From Noviherbaspirillum sp. L7-7A (GTDB lineage Bacteria; Pseudomonadota; Gammaproteobacteria; Burkholderiales; Burkholderiaceae_D): 64,000 bases of DNA. This document shows, one piece after another, positions 37,803 to 46,700 of the stretch (its first letter is position 1; each line of letters begins with the position of its first letter). The notes below the pieces were generated by a model. It was not told where the DNA came from and did no database searches. It was given only the letters and a program-made list of their open reading frames with translations. The DNA is taken from NCBI RefSeq assembly GCF_019052805.1, contig NZ_JAHQRJ010000003.1, forward strand, positions 372,001 through 436,000, in the 5' to 3' direction. The translations under genes were made by a program, and so were the position numbers.

Positions 37803-39011
37803 TTACTGGCCGAGCACGCCAAGCGACTGCAGGCGTTCGATTTCCTCACGGCTGTAGCCATGCTGCTCCAGAATGGCCACCGAATGCTGGCCGGGGAGCG
37901 GCGCGGCAAAGGCGGCCGGGCCCGGCGTGTCGCTGAAGGTGATCGGCTTGTTGAGCCCGCGGTAGCTACCCACCAGCGGATGCGACAGCGTGGCCACCAT
38001 GTCCTCGGCCAGCACCTGGGGATGGTCGAACATGTCCTCGATGCTGCGCACCGCGGCGCACGGCACCCGCTCGCCGAAGACCTCTTCCCATTCCAGCGCC
38101 GAGCGCGCCGCCAGCGCCTGGCGCAGGCGGGGCACGATCTCGCCGGCGGCTTCGGCGCGCTTGCGCACGGTGTCGTAGCGCGGGTCGGCCGCCAGCTCAG
38201 GCATGCCGGCCAGCTCGCACAGGTCGCGCCAGAAATGCGGCGTGTTGGCCGACAGGTAAAGACTGCCTTCCCGGGTCGGATGGATGCCGGTAACCCCGCC
38301 GGAGCGCATGTCGCGCGATACGTCGCGGGCTTCGCCGTCGGCCCAGATGAAGCGCGCCGACTGCATCGCCAGCGCGCTGCGCAACAGCGACACGCCGACA
38401 TGCTGGCCGCGCCCGGTGCGCTCGCGGCACAGCAGCGCCGACGACACGCCGAAGGCCAGCATCGAGGCGGCATAGTAGTCGACGATGGAGCCGTAGGCGA
38501 TTTCCGGCGCCTCGGCCGACTTGCCCTGCATGGCGCAGATGCCGGTCATGGCCTGCAGCACCTGGTCATAGCCGGCCTTGTCCTTCAGCGGGCCGGTCAC
38601 GCCGTAGCCGGTGACGGCGCAGTACACCAGGCGTGGATTGACCTCCTTCAGCTGCTCCCAAGCGATGCCGAGCCGGGCTGGCACCGACGGGCGGAAGTTA
38701 TGCACCAGCACATCGGCCTGCAGCACCAGCGTCTTCAGCGCGGCCAGGCCCTCGGCCTGCTTCAGGTCCAGCACCAGGCCGCGCTTGCTGCGGTTCACGC
38801 CGAGGAAGGCGCGGCTTTCCTGCGCCAGCGTGGACGGATACTTGTGCAGCGTGTCGCCGGCCGGCGACTCGATCTTGATCACCTCGGCGCCCAGGTCGGC
38901 CAGCAGCGTGCAGCCGTAGGGACCGGCGATATAGCTGGACAGGTCCAGCACGCGGATGCCCGACAGCGGGCCGGCCATGTCGGTGCCTGGCTGGTATGAC
39001 TGATTCATCAT
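37803..39011 (-). CDS. CaiB/BaiF class III CoA-transferase
   Basis: A 402-residue enzyme that moves CoA between carboxylic acids. It begins with the family stretch LSGIRVLDLSSYIAGPYGCT and LLADLGAEVIKIESPAGD and carries NRSKRGLVLDLK. An upstream TTG (39014) is directly in line, but there is no ribosome-binding site of its own. The IscB element ends exactly at the start codon, and the iscB stop TGA overlaps the ATG (TGATG). Its original ribosome-binding site, AGGAG, now lies about 1.7 kb away behind the lyase gene. Expression may depend on coupling to iscB translation. Confidence 0.93.
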   Translation of the reverse strand: MMNQSYQPGTDMAGPLSGIRVLDLSSYIAGPYGCTLLADLGAEVIKIESPAGDTLHKYPSTLAQESRAFLGVNRSKRGLVLDLKQAEGLAALKTLVLQADVLVHNFRPSVPARLGIAWEQLKEVNPRLVYCAVTGYGVTGPLKDKAGYDQVLQAMTGICAMQGKSAEAPEIAYGSIVDYYAASMLAFGVSSALLCRERTGRGQHVGVSLLRSALAMQSARFIWADGEARDVSRDMRSGGVTGIHPTREGSLYLSANTPHFWRDLCELAGMPELAADPRYDTVRKRAEAAGEIVPRLRQALAARSALEWEEVFGERVPCAAVRSIEDMFDHPQVLAEDMVATLSHPLVGSYRGLNKPITFSDTPGPAAFAAPLPGQHSVAILEQHGYSREEIERLQSLGVLGQ

Positions 39012-40393
39012 CAAGATTTTGCGCGGGATACCCCGGCATTCATGCCGGGGAGGGATAGCGCGGCATGCGAAGCATGCCCTACACCCGCTGAAATATTGCT
39101 ATCTATGTTGAACGAATAACCGTAGCCATCGGCTCGCTGCAGCATGGTGCAGTAGTGGTGACTGATTCCCTGTACTACCTCTTTACTCAACTGAATATAA
39201 AAATTGCCGGAGGCGCGAACCGCGACCCGGCCCGCATAGGTGCCGAACTTTTTTCCGGCTGTGACCGTGGCTCGTACCATGTCGCCGGTCTGGAAACCTT
39301 TGACAGACTTCTCACGCATCAGATAGCCACGCGGGAAGCCATACTTGTCCAGTCGGGTACGCTGATACGAGCCACGTCCGGTAGCCTTGATGGCCAATGT
39401 CGGCCGGCACCAACTCGTAACCGATTCCACCGCTCCAACGCACGCAGCATCCAGTGCATGCGTTTTGGGCACGTCCAGCCGACACCTGTTGTACTTGGCC
39501 CGGCCGCCCAAGGAGGCTTCGACTGTAAGGTCAGTAGCTTTCAGGCTGTTGAACAAGGCCCATCGGGTCGCATTCACGGCAGCGGTATCCCTCAGAGGCC
39601 GCTTAGCCTGCGCCAAAATCCGGGCTAGCCGGGTCGGATCCTTTTTTAAAAAGACCCGGATATCCAGTGCGGCCTTTTTGTGGTTGCAAGGCTGGCATGC
39701 GGTGCCGAGGTTGCTGATGCGATTCGTGTCACCGCTGGCGCGGGGCGTAATGTGCTCCATCTGCAACGGCACGTTTTCTTTATCGCAGTACATGCCTTTG
39801 CGACCCCATTTCTCCAGCAAGTATTCGCGCACCTCATACCCGGCCAGCGTTCCTTGCTGATATTCGACGCCGGAGATTTTGGGATTTTCCACCGCTTGCA
39901 TGTCGAACCTGACCAGTTCAGTGCTCAGGGCCGTTACAGGTGCCCAGCGGCAGATCCGATTGACCCATGCCATTGTCGTGTCGACCCGGTGCTGTAGAGA
40001 CGGCGCCAACCAGCCTTTTGGCTTGCGACGATTGAGGAACCGTGGCGCACGGTAGTGCGTGTTGCGGCCGCGCCGTGCCCGACGCATATTGCGTCTAGCA
40101 GGCAACGCTTCGGAGATCTGCCGACCACGATGGATTAAGTCGAACAGATTGAGCACGGCGATGCCGCCATTGAACTCTCTTACTCGCGCGATGCCAGTGA
40201 CCTTGCTACCGGGATCTAGTTTGAGACGCAGCGGTTGAAACTCGCAGGAATTGGCATTCCGCTCCACGAGCCGGATCACAAATGGCAGAACATGATGGAC
40301 GCGCGCACGACCACGTTCGAGGAGCAATCTCGCCCGCTTCTCCGTGCACGGCATCACCGGCCTGCCGTATCGCTCCAACACAGAAACCGCCAA
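39011..40393 (-). CDS. iscB: IscB RNA-guided nuclease
   Basis: A 460-residue IscB, the ancestor-like relative of Cas9. In order: PLMP-like start (GRPVMPCTEKRARLLLERG, about 10-30), RuvC-I with Asp60 in LKLDPGSK, Arg-rich bridge helix (about 100-126, RRNMRRARRGR), RuvC-II with Glu159 (LSTELVRFD), HNH domain with His214 in LQMEHITPR and NLGTACQPCNHKK, RuvC-III with KTHALDAACVG, and a C-terminal domain. It starts at TTG with AGGAGAAGGAA upstream. All nuclease residues appear intact. Gly200 replaces the first Cys of the usual CxxC (CAYC here GMYC), a one-base change that could weaken zinc binding. Confidence 0.93.
   Translation of the reverse strand: MAVSVLERYGRPVMPCTEKRARLLLERGRARVHHVLPFVIRLVERNANSCEFQPLRLKLDPGSKVTGIARVREFNGGIAVLNLFDLIHRGRQISEALPARRNMRRARRGRNTHYRAPRFLNRRKPKGWLAPSLQHRVDTTMAWVNRICRWAPVTALSTELVRFDMQAVENPKISGVEYQQGTLAGYEVREYLLEKWGRKGMYCDKENVPLQMEHITPRASGDTNRISNLGTACQPCNHKKAALDIRVFLKKDPTRLARILAQAKRPLRDTAAVNATRWALFNSLKATDLTVEASLGGRAKYNRCRLDVPKTHALDAACVGAVESVTSWCRPTLAIKATGRGSYQRTRLDKYGFPRGYLMREKSVKGFQTGDMVRATVTAGKKFGTYAGRVAVRASGNFYIQLSKEVVQGISHHYCTMLQRADGYGYSFNIDSNISAGVGHASHAALSLPGMNAGVSRAKS
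39031..39078. repeat. right-end hairpins of the IscB element
   Basis: CCCCGGCAT and ATGCCGGGG are perfect 9-base arms (39031-39050) around two bases. GGCATGC and GCATGCC form a second hairpin (39062-39078). They lie within the 3' end of iscB, as is usual for single-strand-transposed IS605-type ends. Confidence 0.8.
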
Positions 40394-42869: not shown

Positions 42870-42920
42870 TTTATTGTCCAGGACAAATAAATTGACTATT
42901 GGAAATTTACTTGGTTTAAT
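42870..42920 (+). promoter_or_regulatory. promoter and palindromic operator of the pyp operon
   Basis: -35 TTGACT (42892-42897) and -10 TTTAAT (42915-42920) are 17 bases apart, close to the sigma-70 consensus. Directly upstream, TTTATTGTCC-A-GGACAAATAAA (42870-42891) is a near-perfect inverted repeat ending at the -35. GAGGAAG lies before the pyp start. The remaining 370-base gap shows nothing else. Confidence 0.7.
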
Positions 42921-42988
42921 GATGTTTTTTTAAAGCAACTAAATCTCGTTACACCCTTGAATCAACTATAGAAAAGAAGAGGAAGAAT

Positions 42989-43366
42989 ATGGAACTAGTC
43001 GGTTTCAACAAGGCGGACATCAATAACGTGCTCAGCAAAATGTCTACCCAAGACATAGACAAACTCGCATTTGGAGCGGTTGAGCTGGACAAAAATGGCA
43101 CGGTGTTGCGGTACAACGCAGCCGAAGGTGCAATCACAGGGCGAAATCCGGCCACCGTCGTCGGCAAGAATTTCTTCCGCGATGTCGCTCCGTGTACCTC
43201 CAAACCTGCCTTCAAGGGCGTCTTCGACGCCGGCGTCAGGGCCAATGACCTCAATACGATGTTTGAATATGTTTTTGACTATCAGATGAAGCCGACCAAG
43301 GTCAAAGTGCACATGAAGAAGGCGTTGAGCGGAGACAATTTCTGGATTTTCGTCAAGCGCCTCTGA
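42989..43366 (+). CDS. pyp: photoactive yellow protein
   Basis: A 125-residue PAS-fold blue-light sensor, the same length as the Halorhodospira halophila protein. All pocket residues known from that protein are present at the same numbers: Tyr42 and Glu46 (hydrogen bonds to the p-coumaroyl phenolate), Thr50, Arg52, Cys69 (thioester attachment, in RDVAPCTSK) and Met100. The C-terminus [16 protein letters not shown] is nearly identical. The next gene, two bases downstream, encodes the chromophore-activating ligase. The output partner is not evident; no sensor kinase is directly fused. Confidence 0.97.
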
Positions 43367-43368
43367 TC

Positions 43369-44607
43369 ATGACAGATGCCTTCACTTCAGATGCTGCGGT
43401 GACCTGGTGGCGTGATGAAGCGGTCATGCACCGTTTCATCTCCGACCTGGTCGCCTCCGAGCTGTCAGCCATGCGTCGAACCGCGCACGCTACGACAGGC
43501 GCCTTGACCCCAGAGACGCATCTGGGCAGGGACCTCGGGGTCGACTCGCTCGAACTGATGGGGCTGGCCACCGCGCTGGCCCAGGCGTTGCACATGCATG
43601 AGTCGGGTATCGAGGATTACCTGCTGGTGCACCAGACTTTGGGAGACTGGCGCACTATCGCCCAGGCCAGCCTGGAAAAGTTCTCGGCACGAATGACATT
43701 CCTTACTTCCGGCAGCACGGGGCAGCCCAAAAGCTGCGTGCATGCACTTCATGCGCTATGGCAGGAAGTACAGGAAGTAGCCCCTCTGCTTTCTGGATGC
43801 ACAAAGTTGTTTGTGGCAGTGCCCAGTCACCACATCTACGGTTTCCTGTTCACCATCCTGTTGCCGCGCGCTCTGGACCTCGACAGCCGTTCCGTGCTGG
43901 ACCTGCGCAAGAGTTCGCCGGCACGGCTATCGCGTGAGTTGCGTGAAGGCGACGTGGTAGTCGGCCACCCCGAATTCTGGCGCATAGTCATGCGGGTGAT
44001 CCCGGCTTTCCCGGCAGCCATTACCGGGGTAACCTCCACCGCTCCCTGGCCAGTTGAGATCGATGCCGGCTTGCGCGCCGCGGGCCTGCATCGGATGGTG
44101 CAGATATATGGGAGCTCGGAAACGGCGGGCGTCGGCTGGCGCACCTGCATTGACGAGCCTTATGAACTGTTCTCCTTCTGGCAGCGTGCCGACCACGCCA
44201 CTAATCTCCTGATTCGCCAAGGCGAGACGGAAGGCATCCAAACGCCCGACCTTTTGACGTGGCAAGGCGAACGCCGTTTCCTGCCAACCGGCCGTCTCGA
44301 CCATGCGGTGCAGGTGGGTGGCATCAACGTATTTCCCCAGAAGGTGCGGCGCGCACTACTGTCGCATCCTGATGTCGTCGATGCCGCGGTGCGGCTGATG
44401 CGGCCCGATGAAGGCAATCGGCTCAAGGCATTCATCGTGCCCCGTGATCCCGGCACTGACGCCGTCAAGCTTTCGGAAAAGCTCGGCGTATGGGCAGGGC
44501 AACGGCTTGGCGCTGCTGAACAGCCTCGCGCCTTTTCCTTTGGCACTTCGCTGCCGCTCGATGAAAAAGGCAAGCAGGCCGACTGGATCATTGCGCCGCT
44601 TCGGTGA
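43369..44607 (+). CDS. pcl: p-coumarate:CoA ligase of the photoactive yellow protein type
   Basis: A 412-residue adenylate-forming enzyme, short for the family, that should activate p-coumarate as the CoA ester for PYP. Residues about 18-100 look like an acyl-carrier domain with the phosphopantetheine-type Ser60 in DLGVDSLELMG. The ligase follows with the P-loop FLTSGSTGQPKS (111-122), YGSSETAGVGW (A5 motif), GRLDHAVQVGGINVFPQKV (A8) and an A10 Lys in DEKGKQADW. It is co-transcribed with pyp across two bases. Tyrosine ammonia-lyase, which makes p-coumarate, is not in this window. Confidence 0.92.
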   Translation: MTDAFTSDAAVTWWRDEAVMHRFISDLVASELSAMRRTAHATTGALTPETHLGRDLGVDSLELMGLATALAQALHMHESGIEDYLLVHQTLGDWRTIAQASLEKFSARMTFLTSGSTGQPKSCVHALHALWQEVQEVAPLLSGCTKLFVAVPSHHIYGFLFTILLPRALDLDSRSVLDLRKSSPARLSRELREGDVVVGHPEFWRIVMRVIPAFPAAITGVTSTAPWPVEIDAGLRAAGLHRMVQIYGSSETAGVGWRTCIDEPYELFSFWQRADHATNLLIRQGETEGIQTPDLLTWQGERRFLPTGRLDHAVQVGGINVFPQKVRRALLSHPDVVDAAVRLMRPDEGNRLKAFIVPRDPGTDAVKLSEKLGVWAGQRLGAAEQPRAFSFGTSLPLDEKGKQADWIIAPLR

Positions 44608-44709: not shown

Positions 44710-46044
44710 TCAGGACTGGTGGCTGCCCGGCCCCGTAAGGACTCCGAACCGTATCCGCACCAGCAGCCCGCCGAGCGCCGCCCTGTCCATCATTACCGAT
44801 GCGCCATGGCGGTCGGCGATGGCCTTCACAATGGCCAGGCCCAGCCCGCTTCCCCCTGGCGGCGAACCGGGCACCCGATAGAAGCGGTCGAACACCCGCT
44901 GCCGGTCCTGCTCGTGAATGCCAGGTCCGCTGTCCTCGATGGTCACCACGCCGGTATTGCCCTCGGCCTGCAGCGTGACGCGCACGGTGCCGTTTTCCGG
45001 GGTGTAGCGCACCGCATTGTCGAGCAGATTACGCAGCATGATCTGCCAGCCTTCGGCGTCGCCCACGACTTCCATGTCGCGCACGCCCTCGTACTGGATC
45101 TCGATGTTCTTCACGAGCGCGAAGCGCGCGGCATCGCCCGCCGCCAGTTCCAGGCAGGCCGGGATATCGACCCGCTTGACCGCGCCGCTCTGCAGCGGCG
45201 GGTCCTGGCGCGCCAGGTTGAGCAGCTGCTCCACCAGCCGCGAGGCGCGGTCTATGCCGCCCAGCAGCCGCTGCACGCCCTGCATCCGGGTTTCCTCGTC
45301 CTTGGCCCGCATCAGCGTCTGCACCTGCAGCCGCAGGGCCGTCAGCGGCGAACGCAGCTCATGGGCGGCATCGGCCACGAAGCGCTGCTGCGATTCCAGC
45401 GCATGCGACAGCCGCGTCAGCAAGGAGTTCAGCTCCGAGGTCAGGCCCGAGACTTCGGTAGGCACACCGCGCTCCGACACCGGCGCCAGCGAGCCGGCAT
45501 CGCGGTTGGTCAGGTCTTCGCCAATGCGCTTCAACGGCGACAGCGCGGTGCTGACTACGCCCCAGGTCGCCAGCAGCAGCAACAGGGAGGTGGGTATGGT
45601 CGGCGACAGCGTCTTCAAGGCAAAGCTGGTCGCCCGGTCGCGCCGCACCTCCATGTTCTGCGCTACCTGGATGGTGCGGCCATGCGCCGTCAGCGCATAC
45701 ACCCGCCAGTCGCCATCGGCCAGCGCGACGGTGGCAAAGCCCGGTCCGTCCTGCTTGGGCGGAAAGTGCGCCACTGACGACTGATAGCGCTTGTGGCCAT
45801 TCTCGTCCCACACCTGGATCGCGAAATCATAGGCATCGTCATTACCCACGCCGCGCCGGTACCAGTCCCATTCCTGGAAGTCGCTGTCCTGCAGCGCAGA
45901 AGCCATCTGCTCCATGTGGTAGTCGAACAGCTTGTTGGCCTCATGCCGGGCGGCGCTGTAGGACGTGGCGAACTGGATCACAGCAGCCACGATGATTTCG
46001 GCGCCCAATAGCAACAGCAGGCGCACGCGCAGCGAACGGATCAT
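44710..46044 (-). CDS. sensor histidine kinase of the metal efflux operon
   Basis: A 444-residue membrane kinase (QseC/TctE/CusS-like). First membrane segment at about 8-26 and second near 150-175, with a periplasmic sensor part between them, then HAMP, HisKA with the acceptor His228 in DAAHELRSPLT, and HATPase_c with LLDNAVRYTPENG, EDSGPGI and GGSGLGLAIVK. The ATG at 46044 overlaps the regulator stop as ATGA. The frame is also open upstream through the regulator gene, so the longer version is rejected. The periplasmic part has no evident metal-binding Cys/His cluster. Confidence 0.92.
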   Translation of the reverse strand: MIRSLRVRLLLLLGAEIIVAAVIQFATSYSAARHEANKLFDYHMEQMASALQDSDFQEWDWYRRGVGNDDAYDFAIQVWDENGHKRYQSSVAHFPPKQDGPGFATVALADGDWRVYALTAHGRTIQVAQNMEVRRDRATSFALKTLSPTIPTSLLLLLATWGVVSTALSPLKRIGEDLTNRDAGSLAPVSERGVPTEVSGLTSELNSLLTRLSHALESQQRFVADAAHELRSPLTALRLQVQTLMRAKDEETRMQGVQRLLGGIDRASRLVEQLLNLARQDPPLQSGAVKRVDIPACLELAAGDAARFALVKNIEIQYEGVRDMEVVGDAEGWQIMLRNLLDNAVRYTPENGTVRVTLQAEGNTGVVTIEDSGPGIHEQDRQRVFDRFYRVPGSPPGGSGLGLAIVKAIADRHGASVMMDRAALGGLLVRIRFGVLTGPGSHQS

Positions 46045-46700
46045 GTCTTGCCAACCATGTAGCCCAAGCCGCGCACATTGATCACGACCTGCTGCCCGAG
46101 CTTCTTGCGCAGGCCGTGGATGTAGACCTCGATCGCATTGCTTTCGACTTCCCCGGACCAGCCGTACAGCCGCTTCTCCAGCTGCTCGCGCGACAGGATG
46201 GCGCCCGGCCGCAGCACCAGCGCTTCCAGGATCTCCCACTCGCGCGCCGACAGCATCACCTGCTTGCCCGCCAGCTGCACCTGGCGGGTATCGATCTGCA
46301 CCACGACGTCGCCGTTGCGATAGACCCGCTCGAAGCCACCGCGCACCCGGCGCATCAGCGCCTCCAGGCGAGCGATCAGCTCGTCGAGGTCGAACGGCTT
46401 GACCAGGTAGTCGTCGGCGCCGCTGCGCAGGCCATGCACCCTTTCCGCTACGGTGTCGCGCGCGGTCAGCACAAGCACCGGCATCGCATTGCCCTCGGCG
46501 CGCAGCTTGCGCAGGATGTCGACGCCGTCGCGGTAAGGCAGGCCGAGGTCGAGCAGCATCGCGTCATACGGCCGGCTTGCAATGGCCGCCTCGGCCTGCA
46601 TGCCGTCCTTGACCCAGTCCACCGACAGGTTCTCGCCTTCCAGCGCGATCTGGATGCTCTCGCCGATCATCTCATCGTCTTCCACCAAGAGTATCTTCAT
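46041..46700 (-). CDS. OmpR-family response regulator
   Basis: A 219-residue regulator: receiver domain with Asp51 (AMLLDLGLP), the acidic pocket EDD at 7-9 and the Lys in YLVKPFD, then a winged-helix domain (about 125-217, SAREWEILEALVLRPG). It is the first gene of the two-component pair, 82 bases downstream of the efflux pump gene on the same strand, so it probably controls metal efflux together with its partner kinase, in the manner of CusRS or CzcRS. Confidence 0.93.
   Translation of the reverse strand: MKILLVEDDEMIGESIQIALEGENLSVDWVKDGMQAEAAIASRPYDAMLLDLGLPYRDGVDILRKLRAEGNAMPVLVLTARDTVAERVHGLRSGADDYLVKPFDLDELIARLEALMRRVRGGFERVYRNGDVVVQIDTRQVQLAGKQVMLSAREWEILEALVLRPGAILSREQLEKRLYGWSGEVESNAIEVYIHGLRKKLGQQVVINVRGLGYMVGKT

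Follow-up and report, generated by a model that had tools for sequence, protein, structure and literature searches.

A photoactive yellow protein (PYP) gene that is followed directly by a gene for a putative chromophore ligase raises the question of how such an operon is switched on, how p-coumarate reaches the protein, and through which partner its signal leaves. The locus lies in a genome of 5.22 Mb (three contigs, 99.97% complete), and the window analysed here is the 64,000-nucleotide stretch C3:372001-436000. The reading that we favour, with a probability of roughly 0.55, is that of a light-induced clade-A PYP module that would be gated by a LitR-type regulator, loaded through a carrier arm of its own ligase with p-coumarate taken up by the cell, and linked by a shared ligase to a second PYP with c-di-GMP as the output. 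The coordinates of the features are collected in Table 1.

Table 1 Features of the pyp-pcl operon and the second PYP gene.
Feature	Position	Strand	Basis or remark
Palindromic operator, 15 bp, ATTGTCCAGGACAAA (proposed LitR-type box)	42873-42887	.	exact match to WTTGTCNNNGACAAW; conserved elsewhere
-35-like hexamer TTGACT	42892-42897	+	sequence; 4 bp after operator
-10-like hexamer TTTAAT	42915-42920	+	sequence; spacer 17
Candidate ribosome-binding site (likely), purine-rich	42977-42985	+	by eye from sequence
pyp, clade-A photoactive yellow protein	42989-43366	+	125 aa; profile, PDB sequence match, alignment, tree
Chromophore Cys69 codon	43193-43195	+	within pyp
pcl, p-coumarate-activating ligase of the pyp operon	43369-44607	+	412 aa; profile, homology, operon linkage
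Acyl-carrier-protein-like domain of pcl, residues 12-104	43402-43680	+	alignment, models, fold search, PF00550
Ser60 codon (invariant Asp59-Ser60)	43546-43548	+	within carrier-like domain of pcl
Shortened adenylation (ANL) domain of pcl, residues 108-412	43690-44604	+	P-loop at 113, C-terminal lysine 402
Clade-C PYP	C1:3049000-3049482		78.6 bits on TIGR02373, below cut-off; on largest contig

The photoactive yellow protein

The first-pass annotation had described a PYP of 125 residues with six named pocket residues in place, and the analysis bears this out. The protein scores 182.3 bits against TIGR02373, above the curated cut-off of 143.05, which places it inside the PYP family, a point that the annotation had left to a search. 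Tyr42, Glu46, Thr50, Arg52, Cys69 and Met100 are invariant in an alignment of six PYPs, in which Phe92, Phe96 and Trp119 are likewise invariant columns. Residues 1-125 align end to end with the sequences of crystallised PYPs (1otd, E = 3.6e-55), most of which we take to be from Halorhodospira halophila. In a tree of 78 clade-A and 16 clade-C rows, restricted to these two clades, A and C separate with support of 100/100 and the window PYP falls within clade A; its nearest neighbours are Noviherbaspirillum proteins, the closest being that of N. pedocola (86% identity). The window PYP is by its sequence a genuine photoactive yellow protein, for which p-coumarate binding, absorbance at about 446 nm and a photocycle are predicted.

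PYP genes are as rare as the annotation had supposed: the TIGR02373 cut-off is exceeded in 6 of 369 class-level genomes and in 8 of 120 relatives, the own genome being counted in both. PYP homologues by the hundred and many pyp-pcl neighbours have already been published (PMC9664959, PMC12826048). The window PYP adds one more, ordinary member to a family that is already known, and the unusual parts of the locus are the carrier-like domain of the ligase and the LitR-type operator. The order pyp, pcl is common to this locus and the pyp-pcl-tal operon of H. halophila (PMC12826048), whose PYP shares the pocket residues discussed above. In contrast to that operon, the locus lacks tal, the genome search turned up no TAL-like lyase, the operator is of the LitR type, and the second PYP belongs to clade C and is accompanied by GGDEF and EAL domains.

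The G+C content of pyp is 51%, against 61% for the window. We rejected this difference as proof of transfer because pyp also lies below its own locus in all four relatives compared.

The ligase and its carrier-like domain

As annotated, pcl begins two bases after the stop codon of pyp. It had also been called a dedicated ligase, a description that holds insofar as the gene adjoins pyp and is homologous to pcl genes elsewhere, but that the curated model does not extend to: its score against TIGR02372 (306.4 bits) is under the cut-off of 334.7, so that homology and the linkage to pyp in one operon are what justify the name PCL. The cut-off is reached in just two of 120 genomes, and 11 of the 120 have a match of at least 265 bits. 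By its full name TIGR02372 is, we presume, the PYP-activation family of 4-coumarate--CoA ligases. The alignment covers positions 4-385 of the 386 of the model, and the carrier-like N-terminal region therefore belongs to the model too, while PF00501 and PF13193 are matched in the last 300 residues. A pcl match is present in 80 of 80 named clade-A loci, four of them with short or odd ORFs (L101, L105, L109 and L127), and a C-terminal lysine of catalytic type occurs in 86 of 87 PCL rows. At 1e-30 the own genome has one PCL only, that of the clade-A operon, and a phylum-wide search with TIGR02372 at 1e-45 retrieved 2 of 398 genomes, neither of them new.

The carrier-like part separates PCL from ordinary ligases, since in 20 of the 120 genomes the only ligases that match TIGR02372 do so from about position 87-102 onward. 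A short ligase of known structure, 4gs5 (358 aa), covers positions 101-397 of the PCL profile and so leaves the carrier-like part unmatched. The FlxY-type short 4-coumarate ligases of flexirubin synthesis resemble PCL in having 4-coumarate as substrate and in lying far from plant 4CL (PMC3992019).

Our PCL alignment has 90 rows, comprising the window enzyme, one per clade-A locus (80) and nine from further genomes. Asp59-Ser60, a pair of the phosphopantetheine type, occurs in every one of the 88 rows that cover this position; the remaining two (L101 and L127) are short ORFs with a gap there. Over 76 non-redundant rows the mean column identity of the domain is 32%, and the Asp, the Ser and two other columns are invariant. 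Ten further plasmid PCLs were found, and all four that were fetched (from Rhizobium, Caballeronia, Methylobacterium and Sphingomonas) carry the motif DSLE.

The predicted fold of this domain resembles that of a carrier protein. Models of the whole PCL (pLDDT 93.5) and of the domain alone (pLDDT 91.3) both show a helical bundle whose second long helix begins at Ser60 (residues 60-74 in the whole-enzyme model), as in acyl carrier proteins (ACPs). A fold search of the PDB with the domain model is led by ACPs, the best being a Toxoplasma ACP with a TM-score of 0.81 by target length, at E-values that are all at least 0.046 and with one designed scaffold among the 50 rows listed. Several of the rows are chains of large complexes that we take to be ACP. 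The evidence from sequence profiles is weak by itself: PF00550, with a gathering cut-off of 20.8 bits, scores 22.8 for the domain alone and 19.8 for the full PCL, and is matched at E up to 1 in 22 of 76 PCL members, whereas the PDB profile matches of the domain have E = 0.012 or worse, with T4 lysozyme mixed in. In the open-access literature searched we found no description of a carrier domain in PYP ligases, and the annotation had overlooked it as well. Given Asp-Ser in 88 of 88 rows, PCL may load p-coumarate by way of a carrier arm of its own, and the domain, its predicted fold and the invariant pair together suggest pantetheinylation of Ser60.

Among the loci surveyed, four apparent PYP-PCL fusions (L041, L093, L102 and L131, with ORFs of 544-565 aa) were discarded, because the N-terminal extra sequence is another reading frame and does not encode PYP. 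One locus (L012:265-3041) encodes a chemoreceptor-PYP fusion followed by a pcl with the DSLE motif; MCP-PYP fusions have been published already (PMC12826048). In Pandoraea eparura (L101:2981-8289) a clade-A and a clade-C pyp share one locus with a pcl ORF of 215 aa that is possibly broken. A PYP-like protein at L016:1489-1893 scores 85 bits on TIGR02373 and is about as far from clade A as from clade C; a nearby gene looks by eye like an acyl-CoA synthetase.

The promoter, the operator and LitR

The annotation had placed a consensus-like promoter directly beside a palindromic operator. Counted by hand, TTGACT-N17-TTTAAT (42892-42920) agrees with the consensus at 10 of 12 positions and the palindrome does lie just upstream of the -35 element, but the promoter taken alone is weak evidence because the promoter scan finds 0.8 sites by chance in shuffles of the stretch. 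The scan of the stretch itself does not list this promoter, since it requires an A as the second base of the -10 hexamer. The weight of the palindrome comes from its conservation elsewhere. At no more than one mismatch, WTTGTCNNNGACAAW has a single site in the window (0.16 expected; present in 15 of 100 shuffles). An exact copy lies within the 250 bp upstream of pyp in 11 of 81 loci, where 40 first-order resamplings gave 0, and one further upstream region has it at one mismatch. All twelve of these loci are from Burkholderiales (Noviherbaspirillum, Glaciimonas, Massilia and Pusillimonas). Among six Noviherbaspirillum pyp promoters, two lack a box within one mismatch: upstream of pyp in N. suwonense (L083) there is none within two mismatches, and in N. 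pedocola (L082) only one site, at two. Four Massilia PYPs cluster with Ramlibacter in the tree yet carry the box, whereas no Ramlibacter pyp locus has one within two mismatches, which suggests that such operons joined this one regulon on separate occasions.

Twelve relatives hold 29 exact forward sites against one for a reversed-pattern control, several of the exact sites being inside ORFs, where chance is possible. In the own genome the excess at one mismatch is only twofold (27 sites against 13 for the reversed control). The clade-C pyp is also preceded by a box in two Glaciimonas genomes and in G427; in Glaciimonas this box lies between the clade-C pyp and a lyase gene, either of which could be the target. 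The clade-C operon of the own genome has no exact box. In the own genome a fasciclin-domain gene has two operator-like sites upstream (one exact and one mismatched, L178:5877 and 6224, corresponding to C1:909876 and 910223), and in both Glaciimonas genomes a box lies between genes that look by eye like a lipocalin and a short-chain dehydrogenase (L201:3992, L203:4047).

A regulator encoded at C1:75253-76203 matches MerR HTH (43.7 bits), B12-binding_2 (26.1 bits) and B12-binding (32.6 bits), all over the gathering thresholds, the last by 0.5. Three of the eight exact boxes of the own genome lie within the 217 bp between this litR-type gene and a divergent amine oxidase-DUF1365 pair; LitR/CarH light regulators have the same MerR and B12-binding domains and the same divergent genes. 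Nine relatives (G369, G370, G371, G374, G382, G383, G393, G423 and G427) share with the own genome a box, at no more than one mismatch, in the litR promoter. These ten are all the genomes that encode a close LitR, and seven of them carry the box as a pair 59-63 bp apart. G393 has in addition a second LitR homologue without a box.

The annotation's view that expression is specifically controlled gains from the conservation of the box both before pyp and at litR promoters. As the operator is common to the two promoters, pyp-pcl is probably induced by light as part of a LitR-type regulon, with LitR as the putative ligand of the shared operator and with repression in the dark by analogy to published LitR work. 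This would give PYP a regulatory circuit in which one light sensor, the B12 photoreceptor LitR, governs the making of another. Among the matches listed from the open-access literature, the two papers that contain both names mention LitR only in the titles of references.

The source of p-coumarate

No tyrosine ammonia-lyase (TAL) lies beside pyp, as had been noted, and the genome-wide search that the annotation had recommended retrieved one aromatic lyase (PF00221), at C1:164845-166314. Its motifs, Ala-His at motif 1 and Glu at motif 2, are of the histidine-lyase type, and the TAL-type His at motif 1 and Gln at motif 2 are absent from it; as a TAL it is an unlikely candidate. The sister genome G370, in which clade-A pyp and pcl are both missing, encodes an enzyme 98% identical to it. 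Both Glaciimonas genomes and G374 have, directly beside pyp-pcl, a lyase that carries the Gln motif, and five clade-A genomes are without a Gln-type lyase (G000, G369, G371, G393 and G427). Because the one lyase is histidine-lyase-like and is shared with G370, p-coumarate is probably taken up, which is a better reading than supply by the own lyase. Uptake has been suggested before in general terms (PMC12826048).

A second PYP and a candidate output

The annotation had seen no obvious output kinase linked to pyp, and none beside it has an evident link. We rejected the neighbouring two-component system (44710-46700) as the output, because neither of its proteins is found at E = 1e-30 in five Noviherbaspirillum loci (L082-L084, L086 and L089), which extend at most 6 kb to each side. 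The system is present in the sister genome G370, which lacks clade-A pyp, and weaker histidine kinase or response regulator homologues lie near pyp in L107 and L144.

A search of the genome for other PYP or PAS partners, also proposed in the annotation, yielded the clade-C PYP of Table 1, followed in the same operon by a PAS-GGDEF protein and then a PAS-GGDEF-EAL protein. By eye, this PYP keeps Tyr42, Glu46, Cys69 and Met100 and has lost Thr50 and Arg52. A PYP-like match at 1e-10 is present in 18 of 120 genomes and clade A in 8 of 120, the own genome included in each count, and all eight clade-A genomes also have a clade-C-like PYP. The probability of this co-occurrence by chance is 5e-8 when genomes are counted and 7.5e-5 when genera are (4 of 92 within 10 of 92), kinship being handled at the genus level only. 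A pcl gene is present in the eight clade-A genomes and in three clade-C-only genomes (G382, G388 and G425), where it adjoins the clade-C pyp. Seven of ten clade-C-only relatives are without a PCL at 1e-30, which argues against a strict need of clade C for PCL.

In three alphaproteobacterial plasmids, clade-C PYP, a diguanylate cyclase and PCL form a single gene run, and in Caballeronia SBC2 a clade-A pyp-pcl pair lies face to face with a clade-C pyp that is accompanied by GGDEF and EAL genes. Given the linkage of pcl to clade C and these gene runs, the single PCL probably also loads the clade-C PYP. Together with the presence of clade C in all eight clade-A genomes and the GGDEF and GGDEF-EAL genes of the own operon, they make c-di-GMP the likely, and best-supported, candidate output. 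The own paralogue belongs with the Burkholderiales clade-C PYPs that have GGDEF/EAL neighbours (PMC9664959), but differs from them in that its genome also has a clade-A operon, the sole place where a pcl was found. The pairing and the pcl linkage elsewhere support the idea that clade C, so far uncharacterised, has p-coumarate as its chromophore too and uses c-di-GMP for signalling. In L202 and in L085/L087 (Glaciimonas), a single island comprises a clade-C pyp, GGDEF and GGDEF-EAL genes, a TAL-type lyase, a clade-A pyp, pcl and two boxes.

Proposed mechanism and alternatives

In the mechanism that we propose, a LitR/CarH-type repressor would occupy the operator abutting the -35 element in the dark and be released in the light, whereupon pyp and pcl would be co-expressed. 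PCL would adenylate p-coumarate, probably transfer it to a phosphopantetheine arm on Ser60 of its N-terminal carrier-like domain, and deliver it as a thioester to Cys69 of PYP. The p-coumarate would probably be imported, for example from plant matter, and because no TAL-like enzyme was found, PYP would be functional only with light and p-coumarate together. The same PCL would probably charge the clade-C PYP, and the GGDEF and GGDEF-EAL proteins of that operon would likely provide the c-di-GMP output. The genes, the residues, the domain with its predicted fold, the conservation of the operator, the co-occurrence and the failure of the search to find a TAL-like lyase are observations; pantetheinylation, LitR binding, the chromophore source, shared loading and the output are inferred. 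Extended to the family, the proposal is that PCLs are one-module carrier enzymes whose own phosphopantetheine arm serves Cys69 of both PYP clades and avoids CoA-dependent breakdown, the Oxalobacteraceae module being LitR-gated and working only with outside p-coumarate; this wider claim is tentative, and we would put it slightly short of even odds.

In the textbook view pCL makes p-coumaroyl-CoA, and this ester reacts with apo-PYP (PMC12826048). The N-terminal domain would then be left over from a carrier protein, with a structural or docking role. This possibility, which we consider serious although doubtful, draws on the published pCL activity, on the formation of 4-coumaroyl-CoA in vitro by another short ligase, FlxY (PMC3992019), and on the resemblance of the PCL adenylation core to CoA ligases. 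A remnant, however, would hardly retain Asp-Ser in 88 of 88 rows within a domain of 32% mean column identity, and in the predicted models the second long helix begins with the serine, as it does in ACPs. As for the chromophore itself, supply by the single own lyase seems very unlikely to us: it is the sole PF00221 member in the genome and the specificity of the family is not safely predictable from sequence (PMC3992019), but both of its motifs are histidine-lyase-like, the lyases beside pyp-pcl in the aligned relatives have Gln at motif 2, and the near-identical enzyme of G370 occurs without clade-A pyp and pcl.

At the operator, the regulator could be one other than LitR, such as a sensor of p-coumaroyl thioesters, the litR promoter merely sharing the box. 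MerR proteins usually bind within the promoter spacer, whereas the box here lies upstream of the -35 element. The class II LitR box published for Pseudomonas, TGTACA-N12-TGTACA (PMC9758184), is unlike WTTGTCNNNGACAAW, and the system here also differs from the class II systems in having the PYP operon as one target. A regulator other than LitR is nevertheless unlikely, since each of the ten genomes that encode a close LitR has the box, at up to one mismatch, in its litR promoter, seven of them as a pair 59-63 bp apart. G425 has only a distant LitR homologue, itself without a box, and no site, and G388 has no LitR at 1e-25 and one site, inside an ORF. We regard it as more improbable still that PYP-A acts on LitR directly, and not via c-di-GMP, in the manner of the short LOV protein that targets the class II LitR of Pseudomonas mendocina (PMC9758184). 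Besides that precedent, the photoreceptor is a single domain without an output domain and has its operator in common with litR; on the other hand, no litR lies beside pyp in the loci searched for it, and the LitR of the own genome retains both B12-binding domains and can therefore be its own light sensor. The LitR-gated, carrier-loaded module remains our preferred reading. PYP is a standard model photoreceptor; the invariant carrier-type serine makes the attachment step directly testable and could improve the production of holo-PYP.

Possible mobility of the operon

Synteny with the sister genome G370 (92% identity) ends at 44741, just past pcl, and the flanks are mostly different in other Noviherbaspirillum loci; L084 holds a homologue (122 bits) of the CoA-transferase that neighbours the operon in the window, and one neighbour gene is common to L086 and L089. 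From the break and the differing flanks, the pyp-pcl operon, with its own promoter, seems to move as a self-contained unit.

An IscB-like RRXRR-HNH protein is encoded 2.6 kb upstream of pyp (39011-40393, minus strand), a possible trace of mobility. In N. suwonense (L083) a protein that looks similar by eye is encoded about 1.5 kb after pcl.
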